43,583 nucleotides of DNA, from NCBI GenBank assembly GCA_003222155.1, contig QHUU01000070.1, positions 1 through 43,583 on the forward strand, in the 5' to 3' direction. The translations under genes were made by a program, and so were the position numbers. This DNA is from Gemmatimonadota bacterium. Its GTDB lineage: Bacteria > Gemmatimonadota > Gemmatimonadetes > Gemmatimonadales > GWC2-71-9. Shown in pieces: positions 3,872 to 43,171 of this stretch. The notes beneath the pieces were generated by a model. That model saw nothing but the letters and a program-made list of their open reading frames with translations. It was not told the DNA's origin and did not search any database. How positions within the stretch are numbered: position 1 is the first letter of the stretch; every line of letters starts with the position of its first letter.

Positions 3872-3872
3872 C

Positions 3873-4652
3873 GTGAGGCTCGTGTTCCTGGGGACGGGGA
3901 CGTCGTACGGGGTGCCGCAAATCGGGTGTGCGTGCCGCACCTGCACGTCCGCCGATGCGCGCGACCGGCGCACGCGCAGCGCCGCACTGATCGAGTCGGT
4001 GGGCCGGCGAGTGCTCGTCGACACCCCGCCCGAACTTCGGTTGCAGCTCGTGGCCGCCGGCGTCGGCACCGTGGACGCGGTGCTCTTCACCCACGCCCAC
4101 GCGGATCACGTGCACGGCATCGACGATCTGCGGGCCATCTCCGTGCGTCAGGGGGCGGCGCTCGACGTGTACGGGGCGGCGGGTACGCTCTCCGAGCTGG
4201 AGCGCCGATTCCCGTACATCTTCGACCACACGCCGCCGCAGCCGGGCACGAGCAAGCCCCAGCTCGCCGCGCACGTGCTCGAGCCCGACTGCGAAACGGG
4301 GATCGCCGGGATGGCGGTGCGGGCGGTGCCGCTGCCCCACGGCCGCGACACCGTGCTCGGCTTTCGGGTGGGGTCGATCGCCTATCTCACGGATGCGAAG
4401 GCGGTGCCCGAGGCGGCGCGCGCGCGGCTCGCGGGTCTCGAGGTCCTGGTGCTGAACGCGCTGCTCCCCCGACCGCACCCGCTGCACCTCTCGATTCCGG
4501 AGGCCGTCGCGGCCGCGCAGCAAATCGGCGCGCGCCGCACGTTCCTCACGCATCTGACGCACGACACGCCGCACGCCGAGCTCGCGGCGCGCCTCCCTCC
4601 CGGCATCGCGCCGGCGTACGATGGACTGGTTGTCGAAGTGGGCGCGGGGTAG
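3873..4652 (+). CDS. MBL-fold metal-dependent phosphodiesterase, PhnP-like
   Basis: The 259-residue protein starts at a GTG one base after the pyk stop. Its N-terminus, FLGTGTSYGVPQIGCACRTC (about residues 5-24), carries the Cys cluster (Cys19, Cys21, Cys24) seen in PhnP-type phosphoribosyl cyclic phosphodiesterases, where it binds a structural zinc. The metal-binding HAHADH motif lies near residues 73-78, and further histidines (LPHGRD and HLTHDT) complete the two-metal centre. The family cleaves cyclic phosphates or related phosphodiesters; the substrate here is not known, and no phosphonate genes are nearby. Tight spacing suggests it belongs to the cobB-pyk operon. A role in repairing a cyclic-phosphate by-product is speculative. 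Confidence 0.8.
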   Translation: MRLVFLGTGTSYGVPQIGCACRTCTSADARDRRTRSAALIESVGRRVLVDTPPELRLQLVAAGVGTVDAVLFTHAHADHVHGIDDLRAISVRQGAALDVYGAAGTLSELERRFPYIFDHTPPQPGTSKPQLAAHVLEPDCETGIAGMAVRAVPLPHGRDTVLGFRVGSIAYLTDAKAVPEAARARLAGLEVLVLNALLPRPHPLHLSIPEAVAAAQQIGARRTFLTHLTHDTPHAELAARLPPGIAPAYDGLVVEVGAG

Positions 4653-4667
4653 GGCGGATTTCCGGTC

Positions 4668-4689
4668 ACCCCGGGCTTGCGCCCGGGGT
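4668..4689. repeat. REP-like palindrome, copy 1
   Basis: A perfect 9-bp stem, ACCCCGGGC and GCCCGGGGT, closes a TTGC loop. It lies 16 bp after the metallohydrolase stop. No T-run follows, so it is not a standard intrinsic terminator. The same palindrome occurs twice more at 16921-16990. Confidence 0.75.
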
Positions 4690-4728
4690 CGGTGAAAGAG
4701 ATAGATTCGACGGCAGGAGGGAGGTCTC

Positions 4729-6108
4729 ATGTCGAACGCTTCACCTGAGGCGGTGCTGCGACGGTTCGAGAGTCCCGCCGTGCGCCAGAGCGCGGCGATG
4801 GACGAGCTGGTGCGCCAGGCGGTGTTCGGGCCGGCCGCGGAGCGTGAGGAGGCGCGCTGGCTGATCTGGGAGATCGGGCAGCATGCCGGCGTGCGGCCGG
4901 CGTCGATCCACGAGTTGTACATGGCGCGGGGCCGGGGCGAGGTAGCGGCGTTCACCACGCCCGCGATGAACATCCGGGTGCTCGCGTACGATTCCGCGCG
5001 CGCCGTGTTCCGCGCGGCGAACCGGCTCGACGTGGGCGCCCTCATCTGCGAAATCGCCCGTTCGGAGATCGGCTACACGGAGCAGCGCCCCGCCGAGTAC
5101 GTGGCCGTGATGACCGCCGCGGCGCTGCGCGAAGGCTTCACCGGGCCGTTGTTCATCCAGGGCGACCACGTGCAGGTGAACGCCAAGAAGTACGCCGCCG
5201 ACCCGGAGGCCGAGCTCCAGGCGCTGCGCACCCTCATCGAGGAAGAGCTGCACGCGGGGTTCTACAACATCGACATCGATACGTCGACGCTCGTGGACCT
5301 GTCGCAGGCCACGCTCCCCGAGCAGCAGCGCGTCAATTACGAGCGCGCCGCCGAGCTGACCAGGTTCATCCGCGATCGCGAGCCCGAAGGCGTGACCGTG
5401 TCGGTGGGCGCGGAGATCGGCGAGGTGGGCGGCAAGAACTCGGACGTGCACGAGCTGAAGGCGTTCATGGACGGCTACGTCCAGACGCTGCGGCGCCTGG
5501 GCAAGTACACGGGCATCAGCAAGATCTCCGTCCAGACGGGCACGAGCCACGGCGGCGTGGTGCTGCCCGACGGAACCATCGCCAAAGTGCAGCTCGACCT
5601 CGACGCGCTGAAAGCGTTGTCCCGCGACGCGCGCGCCACGTACGGCCTGGGTGGGGCGGTGCAGCACGGGGCCTCCACGCTCCCGCCCGATGCCTTCGGC
5701 AACTTTCCCAAGTGCGAGGCGATCGAGATTCACCTCGCGACCAACTTTCAGAACATCGTGTTCGACCACCCCAAGCTGCCCGCGGGGCTGCGGCGCGAGC
5801 TGCAGGAGTGGGTGAAGGCCGAGTGCAAAGACGAGTGGAAGAAGGGCGACACGGAGGAGCAGTTCTACTACAAGAGCCGCAAGAAGGCGATCGGTCCGTT
5901 CAAACGGCGCCTGTGGGACCTGCCGGGCGATGTCCGGGCGGCCATCGCCGCCGACCTCGAGAAGACGTTCGCCTTCCTGTTCGAGCAGCTGCGCGTGACC
6001 GAGACGCGTGCCGTCACCGATCGGTTCGTGCGGCCGCCGCTGCAGTCGCACGCGCAGCCGCGCCCGGTCGCGGTGGCGGCCCCCGACGACCTGGAGGCGG
6101 GCGAGTGA
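4729..6108 (+). CDS. Class II (metal-dependent) ketose-bisphosphate aldolase-like protein
   Basis: A strong Shine-Dalgarno run, GGAGGGAGG, precedes the ATG. The product has 459 residues, far longer than the usual 285-360 for class II aldolases. The zinc and substrate ligands of that family are in order: His147 in QGDHVQV, Glu229 in GAEIGEVGG, His274 in GTSHGG and His313 in VQHGAS, with FYNIDIDTS (178-186) in the barrel. Family members cleave fructose- or tagatose-1,6-bisphosphate to dihydroxyacetone phosphate and glyceraldehyde 3-phosphate. Extra sequence sits at the N-terminus (about 1-75) and in a Lys/Glu-rich C-terminal region (350-459). Its nearness to pyk fits central sugar metabolism. 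It may be a divergent subfamily with another substrate, so no gene symbol is given. Confidence 0.72.
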   Translation: MSNASPEAVLRRFESPAVRQSAAMDELVRQAVFGPAAEREEARWLIWEIGQHAGVRPASIHELYMARGRGEVAAFTTPAMNIRVLAYDSARAVFRAANRLDVGALICEIARSEIGYTEQRPAEYVAVMTAAALREGFTGPLFIQGDHVQVNAKKYAADPEAELQALRTLIEEELHAGFYNIDIDTSTLVDLSQATLPEQQRVNYERAAELTRFIRDREPEGVTVSVGAEIGEVGGKNSDVHELKAFMDGYVQTLRRLGKYTGISKISVQTGTSHGGVVLPDGTIAKVQLDLDALKALSRDARATYGLGGAVQHGASTLPPDAFGNFPKCEAIEIHLATNFQNIVFDHPKLPAGLRRELQEWVKAECKDEWKKGDTEEQFYYKSRKKAIGPFKRRLWDLPGDVRAAIAADLEKTFAFLFEQLRVTETRAVTDRFVRPPLQSHAQPRPVAVAAPDDLEAGE

Positions 6109-6407
6109 GCGAGCAGAGCACGGGATTCGGGCCGTTCCTGTTCGGCGTGGTGATCGGGGCGTCGCTGGGATTCCTGTTCGCTCCCGAGGCCGGCGCGGCG
6201 TCGCGCACCAAGCTGGCGCGCCGCGTGCGCGAGCTCGCGGCCGAAAAAATCGACGAGCTGGGCGAGCTCGTCGGCTCGGAAGACACCGAGGAGGGCGCGC
6301 CGACGGCCCGCGCGGCGCTGACGCGCCGGCTGACCGACGCCAAGCGCCGCCGCCGCGTGGCCCGGCGGGGCGGCGGCGTCGAGGAGGAGGACGAGCCCGT
6401 CGCGTGA
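6105..6407 (+). CDS. YtxH-like small membrane protein
   Basis: GTG at 6105 overlaps the aldolase stop as GTGA and gives 100 residues, MSEQSTGFGPFLFG onward. A single hydrophobic segment at residues 9-28 contains GVVIGASLGFLFAPEAG, the signature of YtxH-type proteins: one membrane helix, an APxxG turn, then a soluble charged helix. The rest is an amphipathic, Arg- and Glu-rich tail likely to form a coiled coil in the cytoplasm. YtxH proteins are linked to stress responses in Bacillus, but their biochemical role is unsettled. It also overlaps the next gene by 4 nt, so the three genes form one transcription unit. Confidence 0.7.
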   Translation: MSEQSTGFGPFLFGVVIGASLGFLFAPEAGAASRTKLARRVRELAAEKIDELGELVGSEDTEEGAPTARAALTRRLTDAKRRRRVARRGGGVEEEDEPVA

Positions 6408-7294
6408 AGGCCCAGGGCGGCTGGCACCGGTCGCCGACCGGAGTCGTGCGCCGCACCCTGGAGGCGGCCTTCGAGGACAACATTCCCTTTCTCGCCGGCG
6501 CCCTGTCGTTCGATCTGCTGCTCACCATCATCCCGTTCGTCGCAGTGCTGCTCGCCATGGTCGGGTATCTGGTGGAGCACCAGGTCACCACCCAACAGGT
6601 GGACCTGCACGAGCTCCTGGCCCGCCTGCTCCCCACCACGCTGGGCGGCGGCACCGATGCCGCGTTCGCGCAGGTGGAAGCCGCCCTGGCAGGCGTCATG
6701 CGCCACCGCGTGCGCATCACCGCCGTCGCGCTCCCGTTGTTCGTGTGGTTCTCCACCCGCCTGTTCGGCGGATTGCGCGCCGCCTTGAACGAGGTCTTCG
6801 ACACCGACGAGCGGCGCCCCTGGCCCATGGCCAAGCTGCTCGACCTCGCCATGGTGCTGTGCACCGGGGCGCTGCTGGTGCTGAGCAGCGTGCTCACCGC
6901 CTGGGAGGCGCGCAACGCGAGCAGCGTGACCCGCAGCTTCGTCCTCGACTGGCTGTGGCGCTTCGGCCTGGAGACGACGGCGTTCGCCCTTGGCGTCCTG
7001 CTGTTCTTCCTGATTTTCAAGCTCATGCCCAGCCGGCGCATCGACTGGCGCACCGCGCTCGTGGCCGCGGTGTTCTGCTCGCTCGGCTTCGAGGTCGCGA
7101 AGCGGCTGTACGCGCTGTACGTGACCCGCTTTGCGACCCTGGATCGCGTGGCGTCGGATGCGAACGTGGTCGCCCTGCTCCTGTTCCTGCTGTGGGTGTA
7201 CTACACAGCCTACTTGTTTCTGCTGGGCGGCGAGGTGGCGGAGACCTACGATCTGATCCGGATGCGACGTTCCCAGCGGGTGCAACTTGGCTAA
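6404..7294 (+). CDS. YihY/BrkB family inner-membrane protein
   Basis: GTG at 6404 overlaps the preceding stop as GTGA, giving 296 residues. Several hydrophobic segments are visible, including IIPFVAVLLAMVGYLV, ITAVALPLFVWFSTRLFGG, LLDLAMVLCTGALLVL and NVVALLLFLLWVYYTAYLFL, consistent with the six helices of this family. The conserved N-terminal AGALSFDLLLTIIPF and the C-terminal LLLFLLWVYYTAYLFLLGGEV match YihY, once misnamed RNase BN. Function is uncertain: proposals for the family include small-molecule export and envelope maintenance. A 9-bp-unit hairpin follows 6 bp after the stop, so the operon may end here. Confidence 0.85.
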   Translation: MKAQGGWHRSPTGVVRRTLEAAFEDNIPFLAGALSFDLLLTIIPFVAVLLAMVGYLVEHQVTTQQVDLHELLARLLPTTLGGGTDAAFAQVEAALAGVMRHRVRITAVALPLFVWFSTRLFGGLRAALNEVFDTDERRPWPMAKLLDLAMVLCTGALLVLSSVLTAWEARNASSVTRSFVLDWLWRFGLETTAFALGVLLFFLIFKLMPSRRIDWRTALVAAVFCSLGFEVAKRLYALYVTRFATLDRVASDANVVALLLFLLWVYYTAYLFLLGGEVAETYDLIRMRRSQRVQLG

Positions 7295-7300
7295 GAGCAG

Positions 7301-7392
7301 GTTGGGGAGGTTGTGGAGGTTCTGGAGGTTGGGGAGGTCACGTAAGCGGGGCAACCTCCCCAACCTCCACAACCTCCAGAGCCTCCACCAAC
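7301..7392. repeat. Inverted 9-bp-unit arrays, long hairpin
   Basis: The left arm (7301-7338) consists of four GTTGNGGAG-type 9-bp units; the right arm (7352-7392) holds the inverted units with few mismatches. The loop is about 13 nt. RNA from this region would form a stem of roughly 30-38 bp between yihY and the JAMM-domain gene. No T-run follows. The same unit recurs in frame within the symporter gene at 22559-22603. Confidence 0.8.
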
Positions 7393-23960: not shown

Positions 23961-26900
23961 ATGCATCGAATCCTGTCCTTGCTCTCGCTCCTGGCGCTCG
24001 CCGCCGCCCCGAGGCTCCTCGAAGCCCAGGGCTCGATCTCCGGGACCATCACCGACACGTACACGGCCGCCCCGGTCGCGGGCGTCACGCTCAGCGTCGT
24101 CGGGACGGCGCTCGGCAGCGCGACCGATTCCGCCGGCCGATATACCGTGGCGAATGTACCCCCGGGCACGCAGCGGCTGCGAGCGCGCAGGGTGGGTTAC
24201 GCGCCCGCGGACACGACCGTCGTGGTGCGGCAGGGAGAACCGACGCTCGTGAATCTGCGGCTGCGGCCGAGTCCCTTCGAGCTGAATCCCGTGGTGGCGA
24301 TCGGGTACGGCGAGCAGGCCAAGGGGACGCTGACGGGCTCCGTCAGCGCCGTCTCGGGCAAAGACGTGCAGAGTGTCCCGGCGCTCAACCTGTCGAACAC
24401 GCTCGGCGGCCAGCTGCCCGGCCTGGTGACCGTCAACCCCAGCGGCGAGCCCGGGTACGACGGAGCGATCATCCGCGTCCGCGGCAGCCATACACTGAAC
24501 GACAACAGCGCGCTCGTGGTGGTCGACGGCGTGCCGGATCGGGACGGCGGCTTGGAGCGGCTCGACCCGGGGGACATCGAGAGCATCAGCGTGTTGAAAG
24601 ACGCCACGGCGGCGATTTACGGATCCCGCGCAGCCAACGGCGTCATTCTCGTCACGACCAAGCGGGGACGCAGCGGCGCAGTGCAACCGCCGCAGCTCAC
24701 CGTGACCATGAACCAGGGCTTCAACCACCCCACCCGTACGCCCAAGATGGCAGACGCCGCGACCTACATGACGATGCTCGACGAGATCGACATGTACCGG
24801 AACCAGACGCCGCGCTACTCGGCTGACGTGATCGCGAAGTATCGGCAGGGGGGCGATCCCTGGCTCTACCCGAACACCGACTGGTTCGGCGCGGTCATCA
24901 AGCCGATGTCGTACCAGACCAGAGGCAACGTCGCGCTGCGCGGCAGCAGCGAGCACATCGGGTATTACCTGTCCCTCAACGGTCTGACCGAAGACGGCTA
25001 CTACCGCAACAGTGCTACCCGGTATAACCAGTACAGCTTCCGCAGCAACATCGACGGTCGGATCACGGACCACCTCAGCCTGCGGTTCGACCTGACGGGA
25101 CGACTCGAGGACCGCAATTTCCCGGTCCGCAGCGCCGGCTCGATTTTCCGCGAGCTGATGCGCGGCAAGCCGAACCTTCCGGCGTACTGGCCGAACGGGC
25201 TGCCGGGTCCCGACATCGAGTACGGCGACAACCCGGTCGTGATCGGGACGCCGGCGACCGGATACGACCGGGACGGGCGTGACTACGTGCAGGGCAGCCT
25301 GGGCATGGAGTTCAAAGTGCCCGGGATCCGCGGCCTCACCGTCAGGGGCAATGCGTCCTACGACGTGCGCTTTCGGAGCCAGAAGACGTGGCGCACGCCC
25401 TGGACGCTGTACACCTGGGACTACAAGACGCGCGACGCGGACAGCCAGCCCGTGCTGCAGGCGGCCCAGCGGGGATACAGCACGCCGCAGCTGAACCAGT
25501 TTGACGGGCGCGGCACCGGGACCCTGCTCAACCTCGTGGGTGAGTACCGGCGGCAGTTCGGCCCGCACACGGTGGGCGTGCTGGGCGGCCTCGAGCGTCA
25601 GCTGGCGGACAGCGACTACGACAGCGCCTTCCGCGATTATTTCACCTCCGCTCAGATCGACCAGCTGTTCGCCGGGGGCGACCTCGGGAAGACGAACAAC
25701 GGTACCGCGTGGGTCGCGGCGCGGCAGAACTACTTCACCCGCATCAACTACGCCTTCCGGGACAAGTATCTCTTCGAGTTCGTGGGGCGCTACGACGGCT
25801 CCTACATTTTCCCGGCGGCGAAGCGGTTGGCCTTCTTCCCGGCCGTCTCGGCGGGGTGGCGCATTTCGGACGAGCCGTTTTTCCGTGACCACGTACCGCT
25901 ATTCGACGACCTGAAGCTGCGCGCCTCGTGGGGCGAGACGGGAAACGACCGGATCGAGCCGTGGCAGTACCTCCCCACCTACGGCTTCGGCGGCGGGTAC
26001 GTGTTCGGCGGCAATCAGGTCGTGACGAGCGTCTTCCCCACGCGTACACCCAACCCGAACGTGACGTGGGAGGTCGCGAAACAGTTCGACATCGGCCTCG
26101 AAGGGCGCCTCTTGAGCAACCGGCTCTCCTTCGAATTCGACCGGTTTAGCGAGCGGCGCAACAACATTCTCTCGTTTCGGAACGCCTCGGTTCCCCAGAC
26201 GGCCGCCATCCCCCTGCCGCGCGAGAACATCGGCGTGGTCGCCAACTCGGGCTACGACGGGTCGATCACCTGGCGGCAACAAATGGCCAACGACGTCTCT
26301 TTCCAGGTCACGTTCAACGGCGGCTATGCCCACAACAAGATTCTGTTCTGGGACGAGCCCCCGGGCGCGCCTCCCTGGCAAGTCGCGACCGGCCATCCCA
26401 TGAATTGTCCGAACCAGGCGAATCAGCGCTGCGATCCGCGCGCCGCCGGCATGTATTACGTGGCGATTGGGATCTTCAAGGACTCGGCCGCCGTCGCCAA
26501 TTACCCCCACTGGGCCGGTGCCCGACCGGGGGACATCATTTTCCAAGACGTCAACGGCGACGGTAAGATCGACGCGAACGACATGGTCCGGATCGACAAG
26601 ACCGGCGATCCCACCTTCACCGGCGGCCTCAGGCTCGCCGCGCAGGTGAAGAGCTTCGACGTCAGCGTCTTTTTCCACGCCGCCTTCGATGCGGTGCAGT
26701 ACTTCAGGACGGAATCCGGCGACATCGGCAACTTCACGCAGGAATACGCGCAGAATCGCTGGACCCCAGACAATCCCAACGCTCCCGGTCCACGCACCTT
26801 CAACCGCCAAGACGAATACTGGGTCGCGCCCCAGAACCCCAACACCTACTTCCTGCGCGATGCGTCGTTCATCCGTCTGAAGTCGGTCGAAGTGGGATAC

Positions 26901-27080
26901 CATCTCCCCGCTCACCTGGCGGCGGGGTTGGGCGTGCACGACGTCCGAGTCTACGCTAGCGGATACAATCTCCTGCTGTGGGACCGGTTCGGGGTGGTGG
27001 ATCCCGAGACGCGGGACAGCCAGGGTCAGTACTACCCGCAGCAGCGCGCGATCAATCTCGGCGCGTCCGTAACGTTCTGA
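23961..27080 (+). CDS. SusC-like TonB-dependent outer-membrane receptor 1
   Basis: The 1039-residue protein starts at ATG 23961 with a signal peptide, MHRILSLLSLLALAAAPRLLEAQ. An N-terminal carboxypeptidase-like beta-sandwich (about 24-105, GSISGTITDTYTAAPVAG onward) is followed by the plug domain (about 115-235) with ALVVVDGVPDRDG and IESISVLKDATAAIYGSRAANGVILVTTKRG (split here, last part YGSRAANGVILVTT). The rest is the 22-strand barrel, ending in a phenylalanine (SVTF), with the DVNGDGKIDANDM loop typical of SusC proteins. SusC imports oligosaccharides by TonB energy through the barrel while a SusD lipoprotein acts as its lid. Its SusD partner follows 14 bp downstream. Confidence 0.95.
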   Translation: MHRILSLLSLLALAAAPRLLEAQGSISGTITDTYTAAPVAGVTLSVVGTALGSATDSAGRYTVANVPPGTQRLRARRVGYAPADTTVVVRQGEPTLVNLRLRPSPFELNPVVAIGYGEQAKGTLTGSVSAVSGKDVQSVPALNLSNTLGGQLPGLVTVNPSGEPGYDGAIIRVRGSHTLNDNSALVVVDGVPDRDGGLERLDPGDIESISVLKDATAAIYGSRAANGVILVTTKRGRSGAVQPPQLTVTMNQGFNHPTRTPKMADAATYMTMLDEIDMYRNQTPRYSADVIAKYRQGGDPWLYPNTDWFGAVIKPMSYQTRGNVALRGSSEHIGYYLSLNGLTEDGYYRNSATRYNQYSFRSNIDGRITDHLSLRFDLTGRLEDRNFPVRSAGSIFRELMRGKPNLPAYWPNGLPGPDIEYGDNPVVIGTPATGYDRDGRDYVQGSLGMEFKVPGIRGLTVRGNASYDVRFRSQKTWRTPWTLYTWDYKTRDADSQPVLQAAQRGYSTPQLNQFDGRGTGTLLNLVGEYRRQFGPHTVGVLGGLERQLADSDYDSAFRDYFTSAQIDQLFAGGDLGKTNNGTAWVAARQNYFTRINYAFRDKYLFEFVGRYDGSYIFPAAKRLAFFPAVSAGWRISDEPFFRDHVPLFDDLKLRASWGETGNDRIEPWQYLPTYGFGGGYVFGGNQVVTSVFPTRTPNPNVTWEVAKQFDIGLEGRLLSNRLSFEFDRFSERRNNILSFRNASVPQTAAIPLPRENIGVVANSGYDGSITWRQQMANDVSFQVTFNGGYAHNKILFWDEPPGAPPWQVATGHPMNCPNQANQRCDPRAAGMYYVAIGIFKDSAAVANYPHWAGARPGDIIFQDVNGDGKIDANDMVRIDKTGDPTFTGGLRLAAQVKSFDVSVFFHAAFDAVQYFRTESGDIGNFTQEYAQNRWTPDNPNAPGPRTFNRQDEYWVAPQNPNTYFLRDASFIRLKSVEVGYHLPAHLAAGLGVHDVRVYASGYNLLLWDRFGVVDPETRDSQGQYYPQQRAINLGASVTF

Positions 27081-27094
27081 CGGGGACACCGAAC

Positions 27095-28885
27095 ATGAGA
27101 CTCCATATCCGGATCACCAGGGCGGCGGTGCTGGTTCTCCTCGGGTTGACGGGTTGCACCGGGGTCATGGACCTCACCCCGAAGGATCAATTGCCGGAGG
27201 AGGCGGTCTTCGCAGACCCGAATCTCGCCCAGGCCTTCCTGAACGACATGTATCGGGGGCTGGGGCACGGTCTGTACGAGATCATGCTGGCCTCCATCAC
27301 CGACGAAACGCACTTCATCCACAACTACGCCACGGAGCCGGTCGTCAAGTCGATCATCACCTCGAGCGACCGCGGCGCGATCGACGATGGCCGATTCGCG
27401 CACTTCAACTGGGGACCCACCTACTCTCGCATCCGGCAGACGAACGTGTTCCTGAGCCACATCGACAAGACCACGTTCGACGATGCCTGGAAGCACCGGA
27501 TGAAGGGGGAAGCGTACTTCCTGAGGGCGTACTTCTACCACAACCTGATGCGGATGTACGGCGGCGTGCCACTCATCACGAAGGTCTACGGGCTGAACGA
27601 AGACTACCGGGTCGCCCGCAACACCTTCCAGGAGACGGTCGCCTTCATCGTGGCCAATGCCGACTCGGCGGCTGCGCTGCTGCCGCTCTCGTACAGCGGC
27701 GCCGACCTCGGCCGGGCGACGAAGGGGGCCGCGCTCGCGCTCAAGGCACGCGTGCTGCTGTACGCGGCGAGCGAGCTGTACAACGTGAACCCGAGCGGCA
27801 AGCCCGAAAACGGCTATACCACGGCGCAGGATCGCACGGCCCTCTGGAGGGCCGCGAAGGACGCGGCCAAGGCCGTGATGGATCTCGGCATCTACAGCCT
27901 GTTCCGCCCGAGCCCGGCGAACGCGCAGGAGGCCGCCAAGAACTACGGTGACCTGTTCCTGCAGACGATGAGCGAAGAAGTGATCCTGAGCCGTTTCTTC
28001 CTGTCGACTCGGGACGACGGCTACAATCCCGGCCTGCACAACGGTCCCAACGGCTTTCACACCTGGGGCGGGAACACCCCGATCCAGAACCTAGTCGACG
28101 ACTATCGCATGTCCGACGGCTCGAAGTTCGACTGGAACAACCCGGTGGAGGCCGGGGCGCCGTACGCGAACCGCGACCCCCGTTTTTACGCCTCAATCGC
28201 CTACGACGGCGCCCCGTGGAGACCGCGTCCTGACGACGTGAAGGGCCTGGACCCCGTCGGCATCATCCAGACGTTCCGGCAGCTCGCCATCCGCAACGAC
28301 TCAGGCAGGGTGACGGATGTGGTGCCCGGCCTTGACACCCGTGACAGCCCGGTCGAGAACTGGAACGGTGCCTACTCCGGCTACTACATCCGGAAATTCG
28401 TCGACCCGTCCATCAACGCGCAGTTCATCAAGGAGCAAGTCCCCTGGATCTTCTTCAGGTACGCTGAAGTGCTCCTCAACTACGCCGAGGCCTCGATCGA
28501 GCTCAATGAGCTGGCGGATGCCGTCAGCGCCCTGAACCAGATCCGGGTGCGCGCCGGCATGCCGGTGTTCTCGGCGGCGTTGGGCCAGGCCGCGCTGCGG
28601 GACGAGTACCGCAACGAGCGCCGCGTCGAGATGGCGTTCGAAGAGCAGCGCTTCTTCGACGTCCGACGCTGGATGATCGCGCCTCAACCGGAGAGCCAGC
28701 CCGCGCGCGGCATCAACATCTTCCTCGACGGGACCAGCCGGACAGACCGGACGACCTGGCGGAACTACCGCTACGCGATCGACACCGTCCAGGCGCGGGC
28801 GTGGAACGACAAGATGTACTTCATGCCGATTCGCCTGGATGAGCTGAACCGGAACAGCATGCTCAAGCAGAATCCGGGATACTGA
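27095..28885 (+). CDS. SusD/RagB-like surface lipoprotein 1
   Basis: ATG at 27095 gives 596 residues. A lipoprotein signal, MRLHIRITRAAVLVLLGLTGC, places the lipid on Cys21. The sequence shows the SusD order: N-terminal QLPEEAVFADPNLAQAFLNDMY (about 35-56), TPR-like helices including KHRMKGEAYFLRAYFYHNLMRMYGGVPL (split KGEAYFLRAYFYHN, about 136-163), then VPWIFFRYAEVLLNYAEASIELN and the C-terminal LNQIRVRAGMP...RRVEMAFEEQRFFDVRRW, ending PIRLDELNRNSMLKQNPGY. SusD proteins bind glycans at the cell surface and open like a lid over SusC. It follows susC1 directly and forms a pair with it. Confidence 0.94.
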   Translation: MRLHIRITRAAVLVLLGLTGCTGVMDLTPKDQLPEEAVFADPNLAQAFLNDMYRGLGHGLYEIMLASITDETHFIHNYATEPVVKSIITSSDRGAIDDGRFAHFNWGPTYSRIRQTNVFLSHIDKTTFDDAWKHRMKGEAYFLRAYFYHNLMRMYGGVPLITKVYGLNEDYRVARNTFQETVAFIVANADSAAALLPLSYSGADLGRATKGAALALKARVLLYAASELYNVNPSGKPENGYTTAQDRTALWRAAKDAAKAVMDLGIYSLFRPSPANAQEAAKNYGDLFLQTMSEEVILSRFFLSTRDDGYNPGLHNGPNGFHTWGGNTPIQNLVDDYRMSDGSKFDWNNPVEAGAPYANRDPRFYASIAYDGAPWRPRPDDVKGLDPVGIIQTFRQLAIRNDSGRVTDVVPGLDTRDSPVENWNGAYSGYYIRKFVDPSINAQFIKEQVPWIFFRYAEVLLNYAEASIELNELADAVSALNQIRVRAGMPVFSAALGQAALRDEYRNERRVEMAFEEQRFFDVRRWMIAPQPESQPARGINIFLDGTSRTDRTTWRNYRYAIDTVQARAWNDKMYFMPIRLDELNRNSMLKQNPGY

Positions 28886-28886
28886 G

Positions 28887-29327
28887 CTGAAGCGAGACTG
28901 CCGCGGGCTCATCGTCGCCGTCGTAATCGGCTGCGGGCGCGGCGCGCCGCCGCCGGAGCGCGCCGCCCCGGTTGCCACCGGTGCCGTGACCACCGTGGTT
29001 CCGACCGAGACGGACGCGCGCGTCGCTCGGGTGGAAGAGCTGCTGCGCGGGGTGCCGGGACTGGACGTGACCCGACTGTCCGACGGCAATTATCAGCTCC
29101 GCATCCGCGGCCACCGCAGCATCCGCGGGAACCCCGGCGACGACGACCCGCTGGTCGTCATCGACGGCATTCCCATCTCGCGCGAGGCGGTCGCCAGCGC
29201 GCTCGCCGCGCTCGCGCCCGGAGACGTCGCCCGGATCGAAGTGCTCAAAGATGCCGGGGCGGCGGGGATGTACGGCTCGCGCGGAGCCAACGGGGTGATC
29301 GTCATTACCACCAAGCGCGCCCGATAA
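28887..29327 (+). CDS. Stand-alone TonB plug-domain lipoprotein, probable CTG start
   Basis: Only a plug domain is present, without any barrel. From CTG at 28887 the product has 146 residues and begins MKRDCRGLIVAVVIGCGRG, a lipoprotein signal with Cys16 in the lipobox VIGC. No ATG, GTG or TTG occurs in frame between the upstream stop at 28845 and this point; the first standard start is GTG at 28986, which would lose the signal. The plug (about 45-146) includes VEELLRGVPGLDV, DPLVVIDGIPI, ARIEVLKDAGAAGMYGSRGA and NGVIVITTKRAR, the same motifs as in SusC plugs. It lies directly after susD1 and before the small barrel gene. It could be an accessory periplasmic or surface part of the SusCD machine, or a decaying receptor. 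Confidence 0.7.
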   Translation: MKRDCRGLIVAVVIGCGRGAPPPERAAPVATGAVTTVVPTETDARVARVEELLRGVPGLDVTRLSDGNYQLRIRGHRSIRGNPGDDDPLVVIDGIPISREAVASALAALAPGDVARIEVLKDAGAAGMYGSRGANGVIVITTKRAR

Positions 29328-29347: not shown

Positions 29348-29884
29348 ATGATGACTCGAGTGATTCGGCTCGCCGCCACGGCGTCCCTCGCCGCCACCCT
29401 GCCGCTGGCGGCCCAACGCGTCGGCACGATCGAGATCGGGGCATTCGCACGCTACACCGATTTCGACAACAGCCTGGGGTTCGGGAACGCGATCGGCGTG
29501 GGGGGACGGGGCGCAGTGTACGTGCGGCCCGACTTCGCGCTCGAGCTGGACGTGTCCCGATCGACGAAGTACACCCCGGTGCACGCGCGGCTGGTCAGGG
29601 CGTTCGCGGCGGGCGCGCGCGCCGACGTGCTGCTCGGTGGGGGCTACGTACGCAACTCGTACGGCGGGGCGCTGGGCGTGAGCGACGGCGGGTTCTCCGC
29701 CCTCCTGGGACTGCGCTACCGCGTGGGCGAGCGTCTGTGGCTGCGGGCCGGATTCGACGCCGACGCCATGTTCTCGACCGACAGCCGGCGCAGCAATCCG
29801 CTTCCCTTCTACAGCGGGAACTGGGGCCTCCAGCTGGGCGCCACGCTGCGGCTCAACGGCGGCCGGGGCGGCGCGCAACCGTAA
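29348..29884 (+). CDS. Small outer-membrane beta-barrel protein
   Basis: A strong AGGAGGAG at 29336-29343 leads to ATG at 29348 (a second ATG follows at once), giving 178 residues. A signal peptide ending near LPLAAQR is followed by alternating hydrophobic and polar strands: GTIEIGAFARYTDFD, GGRGAVYVRPDFALELDV, FSALLGLRYRVGERLWLRAGFDADAMF, NWGLQLGATLRLN. This is the pattern of an eight-stranded OmpA/OmpW-like barrel. No peptidoglycan-binding domain is present. Its place between the plug lipoprotein and susC2 suggests a role in the same surface complex, perhaps passing small molecules or bracing the SusCD pairs. The exact function is unknown. Confidence 0.7.
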   Translation: MMTRVIRLAATASLAATLPLAAQRVGTIEIGAFARYTDFDNSLGFGNAIGVGGRGAVYVRPDFALELDVSRSTKYTPVHARLVRAFAAGARADVLLGGGYVRNSYGGALGVSDGGFSALLGLRYRVGERLWLRAGFDADAMFSTDSRRSNPLPFYSGNWGLQLGATLRLNGGRGGAQP

Positions 29885-29896
29885 GGAGGCCGGGTC

Positions 29897-32800
29897 ATGA
29901 GACGCCGTCCCTGCGCCTGGCTTATTCTGAGCGGGGCGCTCGTCGGAGGCGCACTGCGCGCCCAGGCCCCGACGGGTACGATCACGGGCCACGTGACCGA
30001 TGCCCCGACCGCGCGCCCGGTGCTGGGCGTCCGGGTGACGGTGGTCGGCACGGACCGAGGCGTCGTCACGCGCGACGACGGCGGCTTCGTCCTGACGGAC
30101 GTGCCGGAAGGTGCGCACCGCGTGCGGGCCACGAGAATCGGCTTCACCCCCCAGGAGCAGACGGTAGTCGTGGTCGCCGGGCAGTCGGTGACGGCGGATT
30201 TCACGCTGTCCACGGTCGCCGTCTCGCTGTCGGACGTCGTCGTGGTGGGCTATGGGACGCAGCGCCGGGCCGACCTCACGGGCGCCGTCGTGTCCGTGCC
30301 CCCCGACCAGGTCCAGAAGACCGCGGTGGTCAGCCTGCAGCAGGCGCTGCAGGGGAGCGTGCCGGGTGCGACGGTGACGCAGGGCGACGCGGCGCCGGGC
30401 GGCGCGATTTCCGTGCAGATCCGCGGCGCGACCTCGACCAGCGGCGATAACCAGCCGCTGTACGTGATCGACGGCGTGGCGGTCGGGACGGCCGGGGTCG
30501 ACAAGTTCACCGTCGGGCCGTCGGAGCCGAGCTTCACCACCATGACCACCACCAATCCGCTGTCCACGCTCGCCCCCTCCGACATCGAATCGATCGACGT
30601 CCTGAAGGACGCCTCGGCCACCGCGATTTACGGCAGCCGCGGCGCGAACGGCGTGGTGATCATCACCACCAAGCGGGGCCAGCGCGGCCAGCCGGGGCAG
30701 ATCACTTTCAGCTCCTCGACCGGGATGTCGACCGTGGTGCGCGAGCTCGACGTGTTGAACGCGCGCGACTACGCCACCTACGTGAACAAAGCCAACGTCA
30801 ACGCGGGCCAGCAGGCGCCCTACGGCGGACGGACGGGGAGCATCGCCCCCGACAGCATCGCCCGGCTGTACGGCGCGGGCATCGACTGGCAACGCGCCAT
30901 TTTCCGTACGGCGGCCACGCGCGACCTGCAGCTCGCCTTTTCGGGCGGGGACGGGAGCGGCAGCTATGCCGTGAGCGGCAATTACTTCGACCAGGACGGC
31001 GCGATCCGCGGCTCCGGTTTCGGGCGCGGGGGGGTGCGCGCCAACCTGGACCGCAAGCTCAACTCGATCGTGCGCATCTCGAGCAGCCTGGACGTCACGC
31101 GCTCCAAGGCCAACCTGGTGCGCTCGTCCGGCACCGAGGGCACGAGCGCCGAGGGGATCGTGCGGGGCGCGCTCCGCTACAGCCCGCTCCCGAACGAGGC
31201 GTACGACACCTCACGCCTTGCGATCGATCCGCGGGCCGAGAACCTGGCTCTGTCCGGCATCCTGGGCGCGAACCCGCTGCGCTACACCGACGAGGTGCAC
31301 GAGAGCGAGACGGTGACGCGCGGCCTGGGCGGCCTCCGCATGTTCGCGCAGCTCCTGCCCTCCCTCTCGTTCGAGACGAGCATCGGGGCGAACTACGAGC
31401 GCAAGGGCGTCGACTCGTACTTCCCGCGCACCGTGTTCGAGGGCAGGAACAGCGACGGGCTCGCCATCGTGAGCGGCTCCGAGTACGTGAACCTGGTGCA
31501 CGAAGACCTGGTGCGGTTCGACCGGGAGCTCGGCGCCGACCATCACCTCGACGCGGTCGCGGGCTTCACCTACGAGTGGGACCGCAGCAGCTGGAACAGA
31601 GACGAGGTGAGGAAATTCCCCGACGACATCCTCGGCTCGAGCGCGCTGCAGCGTGGGCTCGCGGTGTCGGCGCCGCTCAGCGGCGTCGCCGTGTGGAAGA
31701 CGGCGTCGTACCTGGCGCGCGTGAACTACGGCTTCCGCGACCGCTATCTCGTCACCGGCACGCTGCGCTCCGACGGCTCCTCCAGGTTCGCCATCAACAA
31801 CAAGTGGGCCACGTTCGCGTCGCTGGGACTGGCCTGGCGCGCCAAGCAGGAGCCCTTCCTGCGCGACGTCGCGTTCCTCACCGACTTGAAGCTGCGCGGC
31901 AGCTACGGGCAGTCGGGCAACCAGGCGATCGACACCTACCAGTCGCTCGCGAGCGTCCAATGCGGCACCACCGTGCTGGACGCGCAGCTCGTGTCGGCCT
32001 GCTACTTCGCGCGGCTCGCGAACCCGAACCTCGGGTGGGAAACGACCACCCAGTACGACGTGGGGCTCGACGTCTCGGCGTGGCAGAATCGCGTGACGCT
32101 GACGGCCGACCTGTATCGCAAGCGCACCGACGGCCTGCTGCAGAACGTGACCCAGGCCCCCAACACGGGCTATTCGAGCGCCTGGGTCAACTCCGGGCGC
32201 GTGACGAATCTGGGGCTCGAGCTCGCGGCGGACGTCCGCATCCTCAGCGGCGCGGCGGGCGGCCCCGCCTGGACGGTTTCGGCCAACATCGCCGGCAACC
32301 GGAACCGCATCGTGAGCCTCGGCGCCACGCAGCAGCAGTTCTCCGATCGACTGGGGGCGGGTGGGGGGCTCGAGGTGAACCCCTTCATCCAGAAGCCGGG
32401 CCTGCCGATCGGCACCATCTGGGGCTACCAGACCGACGGGATCTTCCGGGACACGGCCGCGGTCAACGCCTACAAGAGCGTGCAGCCCGACGCCCAGCTG
32501 GGCGACTATCGCTACAAGGATCTGAACGGCGACGGACACTTGACCGACGCCGACAAGACGATGATCGGCAACGTGAATCCCGACTACGTCTTTGGCATCA
32601 CCAACCGCGTCACATTCGGTCGCTTCGATTTCAGCGCCCTGATCCAGGGAGTGCACGGAAACAACATCCTCAACGCCAACCGGCTCCAGTTCCTCGCGCT
32701 CGACGGCTTCGGCGGCAACATTCCGCTGGAGTACTACCGGAACGCTTTCGATCCCGTGACGAACCCCAACGGCAAGTACCCCATGGTCACCGCCAACCGT

Positions 32801-33076
32801 GTCGGCGTGGGGCGATTCTCCGATGCCTTCGTGGAGGACGGGAGCTACATCCGGCTCAAGAACGTGCAGCTCGGCTACGAGCTGCCGCCCAGGGTCGTTC
32901 CCGGGGCGCAGGCCGCCCGGGTTTATGTCAGCGCGATCAATCTGCTCACGAGCACCGACTATACGGGCTACGACCCCGAGGTCAGCGCCTTCAGCACGAC
33001 CGCCATGCGCGGCGTGGACCTGGGAAGCTACCCGCAGTCGCGCCTGCTCACCTTCGGCATGACCTTGACCTTCTGA
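29897..33076 (+). CDS. SusC-like TonB-dependent outer-membrane receptor 2
   Basis: AAGGAGG before ATG 29897 gives a strong start. The 1059-residue product has a signal peptide (MRRRPCAWLILSGALVGGALRAQ), a carboxypeptidase-like domain (about 26-110, GTITGHVTDAPTARPVLG onward), the plug domain (about 113-260) with YVIDGVAVGTAG and IDVLKDASATAIYGSRGANG, and a barrel ending LLTFGMTLTF with the C-terminal Phe. DLNGDGHLTDADKTMIGN is the usual SusC loop. The plug has extra sequence around 195-225 (FTVGPSEPSFTTMTTTNPLS). It forms a second SusCD pair with the gene at 33090, so the locus may import glycans of two sizes. It differs from receptor 1 in length and detail and is not a recent copy. Confidence 0.95.
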   Translation: MRRRPCAWLILSGALVGGALRAQAPTGTITGHVTDAPTARPVLGVRVTVVGTDRGVVTRDDGGFVLTDVPEGAHRVRATRIGFTPQEQTVVVVAGQSVTADFTLSTVAVSLSDVVVVGYGTQRRADLTGAVVSVPPDQVQKTAVVSLQQALQGSVPGATVTQGDAAPGGAISVQIRGATSTSGDNQPLYVIDGVAVGTAGVDKFTVGPSEPSFTTMTTTNPLSTLAPSDIESIDVLKDASATAIYGSRGANGVVIITTKRGQRGQPGQITFSSSTGMSTVVRELDVLNARDYATYVNKANVNAGQQAPYGGRTGSIAPDSIARLYGAGIDWQRAIFRTAATRDLQLAFSGGDGSGSYAVSGNYFDQDGAIRGSGFGRGGVRANLDRKLNSIVRISSSLDVTRSKANLVRSSGTEGTSAEGIVRGALRYSPLPNEAYDTSRLAIDPRAENLALSGILGANPLRYTDEVHESETVTRGLGGLRMFAQLLPSLSFETSIGANYERKGVDSYFPRTVFEGRNSDGLAIVSGSEYVNLVHEDLVRFDRELGADHHLDAVAGFTYEWDRSSWNRDEVRKFPDDILGSSALQRGLAVSAPLSGVAVWKTASYLARVNYGFRDRYLVTGTLRSDGSSRFAINNKWATFASLGLAWRAKQEPFLRDVAFLTDLKLRGSYGQSGNQAIDTYQSLASVQCGTTVLDAQLVSACYFARLANPNLGWETTTQYDVGLDVSAWQNRVTLTADLYRKRTDGLLQNVTQAPNTGYSSAWVNSGRVTNLGLELAADVRILSGAAGGPAWTVSANIAGNRNRIVSLGATQQQFSDRLGAGGGLEVNPFIQKPGLPIGTIWGYQTDGIFRDTAAVNAYKSVQPDAQLGDYRYKDLNGDGHLTDADKTMIGNVNPDYVFGITNRVTFGRFDFSALIQGVHGNNILNANRLQFLALDGFGGNIPLEYYRNAFDPVTNPNGKYPMVTANRVGVGRFSDAFVEDGSYIRLKNVQLGYELPPRVVPGAQAARVYVSAINLLTSTDYTGYDPEVSAFSTTAMRGVDLGSYPQSRLLTFGMTLTF

Positions 33077-33089
33077 AAGGAGGCACGCC

Positions 33090-34778
33090 ATGAATCGAGC
33101 TCGTCGCGGCTGGTTGGCACTGCTGGCGTCGGCGTGCCTCTGCAGCGGCGCCGCGGGGTGTCACGATCTGTTCAATCTCGACGAGCATCCGCAGACCTTC
33201 GTCGACCCCGCGAGCTACTTCAAGACCGGCGACCAGGCCATCGCGGCGGTGAACGGCATCTACGCGCCGCTGATGACCTGGGACGATTGGATCGATCCGG
33301 CCTGGCAGGAAGTGACCTGCGAAGGTCCGGACATCTTCTGCCCCGACTGGTGGGCGTTCGGTCGCCTGGGCGCAAAGACCGGCACGTGGTTCGCCGGCCG
33401 CACGTGGACCGCGAACTACCAGGTGATCCGCCGCGCCAACGACGTCCTGGGTCAGCTGGACCACGTGAGCCTCGACCCGGCCCTCGAGGAGCGCCTGCGG
33501 GGCGAGGCGCATTTCCTCCGCGGCTACGCCTATTTCGAGCTGGTCCGGCGCTACGGCGCCGTCCCGCTGCGGCTCACGCCGTACGTCCCCGACGGCACCT
33601 ACGGCGACGCGCCGCGGGTGCCGATCGCGCAGGTGTATCCCGCGATCGTGAACGACCTGAAGGCCGCCACCCAGGAGCTGCCGCCCGATTTCGCGTCGCA
33701 CACATACTCGAGCGCGGACCGCGGCCGCCCCACCGCGTTCTCGGCCTGGGGTCTCCTCGCCAAGGTCTACCTCACGATGGCCGGGGCGGAGCTCGTGGGA
33801 ACGCCGCTGGCCGCCGCCAAGCAGCAGTACGCCGATTCCGCGCGCCTGGCCGCGCAGCAGGTGATGCAGAGCGGCTGGATCACGCTCGAGCCCAGCTACA
33901 TGCGGTTGTTCGACGGGCAGCAGCAGATCAACAGCAACGAGATCCTGTTCCAGATCGGCGCGACGCACCAGGAGAACACCGGTCCCGAGATCGCCACGTT
34001 CTTCAACCCGCACGACTACTCCACGGCGGGCGGCGGCGGGGGCGGCTTCCTGAGCATGCGGCAGGTCTTCTACTCGACCTTCGACACCCTGGACCGGCGG
34101 ATCGCCCCCGGCTACGCGATCTTCGCGGGGTGGAAGGAATCGTCGTCGTCCGCCGACCCCGGGACGCCCGCCTGGTACCAGGGCGCGGTTCCGGACAGCA
34201 TCAGGATCGCAGTCGCAGCCGACAGTCAGATCGGCTGGACCTGGACCGAATTGTGTGAGACCGTCGGCGCGAACGCCTACTTCAACCGTAGCACGCGCAC
34301 GGTGGTGCAGATCTCGCCACGCATCTACACGATGAAGTACATCGACCGCACCGCCCTCACCAAGAGCCAGAACGAGACGAACCCGATCATCCTGCGGTAC
34401 GCGGACGTGCTGCTGGTGTTCGCCGAAGCCGAGAACGAAGCGAGCGGGCCGACGGCGGCCGCGTATGACGCGATCAATCGGGTCCGCACCCGCTCCAACG
34501 TGCCCAACCTGACACTCGGCCTGTCGCAGGCGCAGTTCCGCGACTCGGTGTGGCTGGAGCGCCGGCACGAGCTGTATGGGGAGTTCCAGGAATGGTTCGA
34601 CCTGAAGCGCCAGGGCCGCTGGCTCGACATCATGAACGACCGCATCCCCGCCTACCCGGGCGGCACCGCGCCCAGCGCGTCGGTGTGCCGGCCGCGCCAG
34701 GCGTATCAGATGCTCCTGCCGATCCCCGATGCCGAGATCGGCGCGAACCGGCTCATGACCCAGAATCCCGGCTACTGA
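33090..34778 (+). CDS. SusD/RagB-like surface lipoprotein 2
   Basis: AAAGGAGG before ATG 33090 gives 562 residues. The lipoprotein signal MNRARRGWLALLASACLCSGAAGC places lipidation near Cys24. SusD order is seen: ASYFKTGDQAIAAVNGIYAPLM (about 46-67), LRGEAHFLRGYAYFELVRRYGAVPLRLTPY (split, about 140-170), TNPIILRYADVLLVFAEAENEASG, then VRTRSNVPNLTLGLSQAQFRD and RRHELYGEFQEWFDLKRQGRW, ending LMTQNPGY. It is the glycan-binding lid for receptor 2, with its start 13 bp downstream of that gene. A Gly-rich run (AGGGGGGFLS, about 312-321) is a likely flexible loop. Mannan specificity is inferred from the glycoside hydrolases that follow. Confidence 0.94.
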   Translation: MNRARRGWLALLASACLCSGAAGCHDLFNLDEHPQTFVDPASYFKTGDQAIAAVNGIYAPLMTWDDWIDPAWQEVTCEGPDIFCPDWWAFGRLGAKTGTWFAGRTWTANYQVIRRANDVLGQLDHVSLDPALEERLRGEAHFLRGYAYFELVRRYGAVPLRLTPYVPDGTYGDAPRVPIAQVYPAIVNDLKAATQELPPDFASHTYSSADRGRPTAFSAWGLLAKVYLTMAGAELVGTPLAAAKQQYADSARLAAQQVMQSGWITLEPSYMRLFDGQQQINSNEILFQIGATHQENTGPEIATFFNPHDYSTAGGGGGGFLSMRQVFYSTFDTLDRRIAPGYAIFAGWKESSSSADPGTPAWYQGAVPDSIRIAVAADSQIGWTWTELCETVGANAYFNRSTRTVVQISPRIYTMKYIDRTALTKSQNETNPIILRYADVLLVFAEAENEASGPTAAAYDAINRVRTRSNVPNLTLGLSQAQFRDSVWLERRHELYGEFQEWFDLKRQGRWLDIMNDRIPAYPGGTAPSASVCRPRQAYQMLLPIPDAEIGANRLMTQNPGY

Positions 34779-42172: not shown

Positions 42173-43171
42173 GTGCACCCCGAGGACGAGCGTCTCTATC
42201 TCCTGTTGGACCGCTACCTGGCCGGCGAGGCGTCGGCCAGAGACGCGGAGGCCGTGCAGGAGTGGCTCGCGGATGACCCCGAGCACGCCCTGCTCCTGGA
42301 CGATCTGCGGCTCATCAAGCGTGTCATAGCCGACAAAGCACCGCCCAGCAGCACCGATGCCGCCTGGGCCAAGGCGGTCGCAGCGCTCGAGGTCGCCCGT
42401 GCCCCGGAGCCGCGCGTGTCGCGACGGCTGCTCGTGGCGGCGCTTGCCGCCGCGGCGGTCGTCATCGCGCTGATCGGCGGAAAGGGCTTGCTGCGGCGGG
42501 CGCCCGAGTGGAGTGAGCACGCCACCGCCGCCGCGCAGCGCGCGGTCATCCGGCTGCGCGACGGCACGCAGGTCACCCTCGCGCCCCAGAGTCGCCTGCG
42601 CTACCCGGCCGACTACGGCAGAGCGCACCGCGAGTTGTATCTCGACGGCGAAGCGTATTTCCAGGTCGCACCCGATTCGCAGCGTCCGCTCCGCGTCCAC
42701 ACCGCCGCGAGCGTCACCGAGGATCTGGGGACCGCGTTTGTGGTTCGGGCGTATGCCGATCAGGTCGCGACCGAAGTGGTAGTGGCCGAAGGGCGCGTGA
42801 CGCTCTCGCAGGCCGATACGACCGCGGCTTCGCGCACGCGCTCGCTGGTGCTCGGGGCCCGGGACCTGGGGCGGCTCGATCCGAGCGGTGTCGCCACATT
42901 GCGACGTGGGGTCGACGTCGGGCGGCAGCTCGCGTGGACCAGGGGCGTGCTCGCGTTCGACGGCACACCGCTCGGTGATGTGGTGCACACGCTCGAACGG
43001 TGGTACAACGTCGAGATCCGGCTGGCCGACAGTGCCCTCGCTGCGCGCCGGCTCACGGCGACTTTCCAGAACGAATCGATCGATCTGGTGCTTCAACGGA
43101 TTGCATTGACCGTCGGCCTGCGTGTCGAGCGCGCTGACGGATCCGTCATCTTGCTCCGGAACGGTAGGTGA
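42173..43171 (+). CDS. FecR-like anti-sigma / regulator protein
   Basis: From GTG 42173 the protein has 332 residues. The N-terminal part, LLLDRYLAGEASARDAEAVQEWLADD (split LLLDRYLAGEAS, about 10-21), is the cytoplasmic anti-sigma segment. One membrane helix (about 84-103, LLVAALAAAAVVIALIGG) leads to the periplasmic FecR domain with LRDGTQVTLAPQSRLRYP, RELYLDGEAYFQVAPDS and DLGTAFVVRAY. A C-terminal STN-like domain (about 255-330) ends SVILLRN. FecR relays the occupancy of a TonB receptor to an ECF sigma factor. No sigma gene precedes it here. The start is uncertain: TTG 42137 and CTG 42155 are also in frame, and the AGGAG lies only 1 bp before GTG. Confidence 0.85.
   Translation: MHPEDERLYLLLDRYLAGEASARDAEAVQEWLADDPEHALLLDDLRLIKRVIADKAPPSSTDAAWAKAVAALEVARAPEPRVSRRLLVAALAAAAVVIALIGGKGLLRRAPEWSEHATAAAQRAVIRLRDGTQVTLAPQSRLRYPADYGRAHRELYLDGEAYFQVAPDSQRPLRVHTAASVTEDLGTAFVVRAYADQVATEVVVAEGRVTLSQADTTAASRTRSLVLGARDLGRLDPSGVATLRRGVDVGRQLAWTRGVLAFDGTPLGDVVHTLERWYNVEIRLADSALAARRLTATFQNESIDLVLQRIALTVGLRVERADGSVILLRNGR

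Follow-up and report, generated by a model that had tools for sequence, protein, structure and literature searches.

The gene at 28887–29327 (+) of the window, as we call the entire 43,583-nucleotide stretch analyzed here, one contig from a Gemmatimonadota genome of 3.45 Mb, encodes what is well supported to be a lipoprotein that consists of a complete TonB plug of the SusC type and lacks a barrel. The protein belongs to a conserved family of plug-only lipoproteins found throughout the Gemmatimonadota, including soil bacteria; in this phylum, the stopper of a sugar-importing outer-membrane channel now exists as a protein of its own. Our leading, though tentative, explanation is that this lipid-tethered plug acts in trans on SusC barrels and is not pulled by TonB, an explanation that stands level with one in which the plug fold has been repurposed as an interaction domain.

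The ORF listing gives a frame open throughout 28848–29327 (+), and translation from the CTG at 28887 to the TAA at 29325–29327 yields 146 residues that begin LKRDCRGLIVAVVIGC and continue into the plug. The lipoprotein signal peptide is encoded by 28887–28934, with the lipobox VIGC and the codon of the lipidated Cys16 at 28932–28934. An earlier note on this DNA had held that the lipoprotein signal appears only if CTG 28887 is the start, and this proved correct: the interval from the upstream stop to the lipobox contains no ATG, GTG or TTG, translation from the earliest ordinary start, the GTG at 28986, would lack the signal peptide, and the window CTG (CTGAAGCGAGAC) aligns base for base with the ATG of orthologues, as in the genomes G035 (ATGAAGCGCGAC) and G143 (ATGACGCGAGCC). 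The stop codon of susD1 ends one base ahead of CTG 28887, before which we found no strong ribosome-binding site, unlike the starts of the downstream outer-membrane protein (OMP), SusC2 and SusD2, which are preceded by GGAGG-type sites. The plug gene is thus likely translated by coupling to susD1. Its GC content by codon position (0.75/0.51/0.87) is similar to that of the neighboring genes, and orthologues 66–77% identical occur in other species and genera, which together place the ORF far above chance. The close relatives also hold further paralogues, and the window genome itself carries five plug-only genes and about 22 SusC.

The same note's description of a complete plug without a barrel likewise holds. 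The Pfam Plug domain (PF07715) extends over 28977–29297 and matches profile positions 6–107 of 107 (E 7e-16), while no barrel model in Pfam or NCBIfam matches the protein, its ORF stops directly after the plug, and the 22-stranded C-terminal barrel typical of TonB-dependent transporters and SusC is absent. NCBIfam matches the SusC plug part, with the SusC signature TIGR04057 above its cut-off. AlphaFold2, run with 27 homologues in the alignment, gives a mean pLDDT of 79.5, with block means mostly between 80 and 95 for residues 31–146; a Foldseek search of the PDB with the predicted structure places SusC transporters at the top and SusC plugs as the best matches, and searching the PDB with a sequence profile gave a concordant result. 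On this basis, the isolated domain is predicted to adopt the fold of a SusC plug.

How widespread is this layout? A 27-member profile is matched at E<=1e-25 in 143 of 298 Gemmatimonadota genomes, some of the matches being full SusC; the best-scoring ones are almost all short frames that span the whole profile, lipobox included. The fetched loci yielded 57 distinct plug-only genes, all from Gemmatimonadota, each with the lipobox pattern (57/57). The layout common to the family, to which the window protein conforms, consists of a lipobox, a linker, a complete plug and a stop right after the plug, and every aligned member (27/27) matches Plug and no other domain. The top 150 matches from 20 Bacteroidota genomes included no plug-only gene: all were full SusC, none was short, and none reached the signal region. 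The open-access literature, the body of work searched, yielded no description of plug-only lipoproteins, whether standalone or orphan, and gave nothing usable on older work in which the FhuA plug and barrel were made separately. Presumably, automatic annotation names such genes "TonB-dependent receptor plug domain-containing protein".

Three groups can be told apart within the family. Group 1, to which the window protein belongs, is a clade of seven (support 100/95) that lacks a Ton box. Group 2, its sister clade, has retained a Ton box-like stretch, for example DEVSVGYGTQ, comparable to the Ton box DEVVVTG of the SusC Bt1763 (PMC7782687). Group 3 is again without a Ton box; its genes are mostly found next to large VCBS-type lipoprotein genes that belong to SusCD clusters, and sometimes occur as tandem pairs. 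In total, a Ton box-like stretch occurs in 12 of the 57 members, mainly those of group 2 together with two others.

A decaying, barrel-truncated SusC or a chance ORF could in principle have produced such a gene, and the CTG start, the absence of a strong ribosome-binding site and the existence of one shortened homologue speak for it. Against it stand the 57 lipobox-bearing homologues, the ATG of the orthologues, and pairwise dN/dS values (Nei–Gojobori) of 0.21–0.42 in group 1; the remaining pairs tested gave 0.18–0.53. In a tree of the 57 plug-only proteins and 37 SusC plugs, a single branch divides the two sets (support 91/95, on only 97 columns). Since repeated local truncation of SusC would have mixed the sets, the plug-only family may go back to one old origin, with the caveat that the alignment is this short. 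Considering the selection, the conserved lipobox and the tree, we reject a pseudogene or truncated SusC and give decay or chance a negligible probability. The argument against decay made in the earlier note is upheld, both by the Ka/Ks ratio that it proposed to compute and by the homologue search, in which genes with the same lipobox–plug layout were found beside susCD genes and neither a lack of homologues nor a set of truncated pseudogenes emerged. The shortened homologue (L084:2077–2388) encodes 104 residues, having lost the RIRG half of the plug and kept the lipobox, and adjoins an intact paralogue.

In the window, the plug gene lies in a tight run of genes ordered SusC1–SusD1–plug–OMP–SusC2–SusD2–GH5–GH26. 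All five of its closest companions are on the forward strand: SusC1 (23961–27080), the first gene of the operon, with its own complete plug and a Ton box-like stretch; the lipoprotein SusD1 (27095–28885; lipobox LTGC|TGVMDLT); the OMP (29348–29884); SusC2 (29897–33076), with a complete plug and barrel; and SusD2 (33090–34778). The OMP, described previously as a small barrel, is indeed predicted to be one, with eight strands and a resemblance to OmpA and OprF, and it is the conserved partner of the group-1 plug. Close to the run are GH27, a GH109-like gene and two sodium:solute symporters. The region 20324–42135, which thus comprises a GH27 alpha-galactosidase, two SusCD pairs, GH5, GH26, a GH109-like oxidoreductase and the two symporters, is likely a galactomannan utilization locus, judging from the enzyme families. 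Near the contig end, a FecR-type anti-sigma gene (42173–43171) precedes the beginning of a further secreted protein, which probably belongs to another SusC-type system truncated by the contig edge.

Neighbors were counted across the family within a radius of 1.5 kb of the 57 plug-only genes, after VCBS matches overlapping the plug on the opposite strand had been filtered out as frame shadows. A susD gene is directly upstream on the same strand in 11 cases, and this orientation holds for all SusD-linked cases (11/11); a VCBS-type lipoprotein gene of SusCD clusters lies beside the plug in 27, mostly tail to tail. One or the other adjoins the plug in 38 of the 57, and 19 have neither. In one locus (L080), the frame of the VCBS-type lipoprotein (3584–7240) extends past its usual end and overlaps a plug-only gene (6914–7369) on the opposite strand by about 320 bases. 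Two orphan plug-only genes bear a Ton box (L070:7273–7761 and L235:7753–8256); of these two orphan settings, one is by an ABC transporter gene and type IV pilus-like genes, and the other in an apparent sugar-acid catabolism cluster.

Within group 1, the order SusC1–SusD1–plug–OMP is found in the window and in the genomes G024, G143 and G234. G035 and G273 carry plug and OMP without SusC1 and SusD1 at the same chromosomal site, between a DnaJ/GH27 region and other genes, and G002, of the same genus as the window, has a group-1 plug alone, so that the plug–OMP gene pair is kept in six of the seven group-1 loci. The persistence of the pair without SusC1 and SusD1 implies a constraint on the plug that is independent of an adjacent SusC. 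The idea that the plug protein is a part dedicated to the neighboring SusC1 is weakened accordingly, as it is by the orphan state of several members, and we reject a dedicated SusC1 partner on the grounds that G035 and G273 retain plug and OMP without SusC1/SusD1. A gate, stopper or scaffold serving SusC barrels at large may still be its role. In the genome G006, an 84% identical OMP (L226:4008–4643) occupies that site by itself, flanked by GH27/symporter genes on one side and GH5 on the other, and neither SusCD pair nor the plug is present; this genome is incomplete, and the arrangement may reflect a deletion or an assembly gap.

On which side of the membrane would the protein be held? In Bacteroidota, surface export depends on acidic K-(D/E)2 or Q-A-(D/E)2 signals (PMC5080379). 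Cys16 of the window protein is followed by GRGAPPP, which has no acidic residue and no LES-type export signal, and across the seven positions after the cysteine the plug-only set averages 0.19 acidic residues versus 1.87 in the SusD lipoproteins of the same genomes (p 1e-9). Read with the Bacteroidota export rule, these non-acidic residues point to an anchor that faces the periplasm. If that rule holds in Gemmatimonadota, the analogy suggests that the plug-only protein sits on the periplasmic side and that SusD is exported.

The residues that would matter inside a barrel can be followed by alignment with E. coli K-12 FhuA, whose R93 and R133 fix the plug in its barrel (PMC11658791). R93 aligns with R74 of the window protein (codon 29106–29108, +), which is 100% conserved in both the plug-only and the SusC sets, and R133 aligns with K121 (codon 29247–29249, +), at which the plug-only set has K in 91% and R in 5%, hence K or R in 96%, and SusC has K in 94%. 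The SusC barrels examined show, by motif only, an acidic residue in an NxGxE/D motif where E571 is expected. Three residues of the helix after VLKD, A123, A125 and M128, are near invariant in SusC plugs and relaxed in the plug-only set, in which E50 (92%), D113 (100%), L106 and I117 have become newly fixed. Separately, an M56 membrane protein of Bacteroides oleiciplenus (L252) ends in a half-plug, PLFIVDG...VLKD...YGEKGKNGV, and has no barrel. In this one clear case the half bearing R74 is lost and K121 is kept, which makes R74 the more telling of the two residues and K121 weak evidence.

The movement of the plug in TonB-dependent transporters, whether by whole exit or partial unfolding, is a long-standing question. 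We propose that the protein would receive its lipid, travel to the outer membrane and be anchored there, probably on the periplasmic face, and that its linker of about 17 residues could allow the plug to dock in SusC-type barrels, or immediately beneath them, once their built-in plug had been pulled or pushed out. The free plug might then serve as a spare or holding stopper that keeps the membrane closed while SusC passes through its transport cycle or is being assembled. As the Ton box has been lost in window-type members, TonB would be unable to pull this plug, unlike the built-in plug of SusC. An empty barrel is a plausible client, since a whole SusC plug has been seen to leave: cryo-EM and crystal data show that closed, empty Bt1762-63 lacks its plug, and although the authors regard the expulsion itself as probably an in-vitro effect, they take it to suggest that TonB removes the plug as a whole (PMC7782687).

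The evidence divides between this proposal and a repurposed fold, each of which we consider possible. Action in trans is favored by the complete SusC-type fold, the universal lipobox, the conservation of R74 and K121, the scarcity of acidic residues after the cysteine, the selection seen in group 1, the branch that sets all plug-only sequences apart from SusC plugs, the observed exit of a whole SusC plug, and the SusD or VCBS lipoprotein genes beside most members. However, SusC1 and SusC2 carry plugs of their own and do not obviously need a second; the isolated FepA plug behaves as unfolded in the work as cited in PMC11658791; K121 is kept in the barrel-less M56 half-plug; and orphan members have no SusCD alongside. 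The relaxation of A123, A125 and M128, which might follow if that face had left the barrel wall, weighs on the same side and, together with the newly fixed columns, favors a plug fold repurposed as a periplasmic interaction or scaffold domain that never enters a barrel, with the SusC N-terminal domain, the eight-stranded OMP or an envelope regulator as proposed partners. Such repurposing also draws on the plug and OMP found together without SusCD in G035 and G273 and on the M56 peptidase, in which plug pieces exist outside barrels, but it accords less well with the invariance in the plug-only family of R74, dispensable in the half-plug, and with the fact that the aligned members have gained no extra domain.

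A third function, that of a ligand-binding or sensing lipoprotein whose free plug binds sugars or signals the state of the transporter to an anti-sigma factor of the FecR type, seems unlikely to us. On its own, the FepA plug retains ligand binding, at about 5 uM (PMC11658791), the window contains a FecR gene, and sigma and FecR-like genes appear, by eye, in several SusCD–plug loci (L229, L233, L234 and L236); yet the loops from RIRG to PLVVIDG are short, a signaling domain is absent, most members have no FecR nearby, and FecR genes accompany SusCD generally. The TonB-interacting adaptor suggested in the earlier note did not survive for the window protein. A decoy or adaptor lipoprotein would offer a Ton box to TonB, as the stretch in the 12 members, which matches the SusC DEVVVTG (PMC7782687), might do, but none is present in the window protein, in any other member of group 1 or in group 3; we judge this function very improbable and reject it for the window protein, unless TonB binds another site, a rejection that does not extend to group 2. 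Hardly credible is a split, two-gene TonB-dependent transporter made of the plug and the adjacent small barrel, to which the kept gene pair of group 1 might point. Plug-bearing transporters have 22 strands, whereas the partner is predicted to be an OmpA-type barrel of eight, which on this model is not wide enough to accommodate a plug; a partner of this kind is absent from groups 2 and 3, and the OMP occurs without the plug in the incomplete genome G006. We therefore reject the split transporter.

Returning to action in trans, if it is correct, these proteins would represent a part of the SusCD import machinery that has gone unrecognized in a major soil phylum, and would offer a natural tool for asking whether plugs enter and leave barrels in trans. 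It is a somewhat doubtful extension that lipid-tethered plugs without a Ton box form, phylum-wide, a separate gate layer determining whether a sugar importer is sealed or usable.

Several known systems invite comparison. In Anabaena, all2620 and other genes likewise encode a plug apart from a full barrel, but they keep part of the barrel, the missing part being encoded next door for two of them, and as described they are not plug-only lipoproteins (PMC2771747). The Bacteroidota M56 (BlaR1-like) half-plugs share with the window protein a plug-derived sequence without a barrel; they comprise only the C-terminal half, without the RIRG half, and are fused to a membrane peptidase. The SusD/SusE-type lipoproteins of polysaccharide utilization loci are likewise lipoproteins encoded beside SusC, probably in the same operon, although the folds are unrelated and the acidic residues that follow the cysteine in SusD are missing from the plug-only protein. 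SusC/RagA itself (TIGR04056/TIGR04057, PF07715) has a plug about 40–45% identical, the same fold, and the RIRG, VLKD and YGSRGANGV motifs in common; relative to it, the window protein has neither the barrel nor the N-terminal carboxypeptidase-like domain nor a Ton box, and it carries a lipoprotein signal where SusC has a plain signal peptide.
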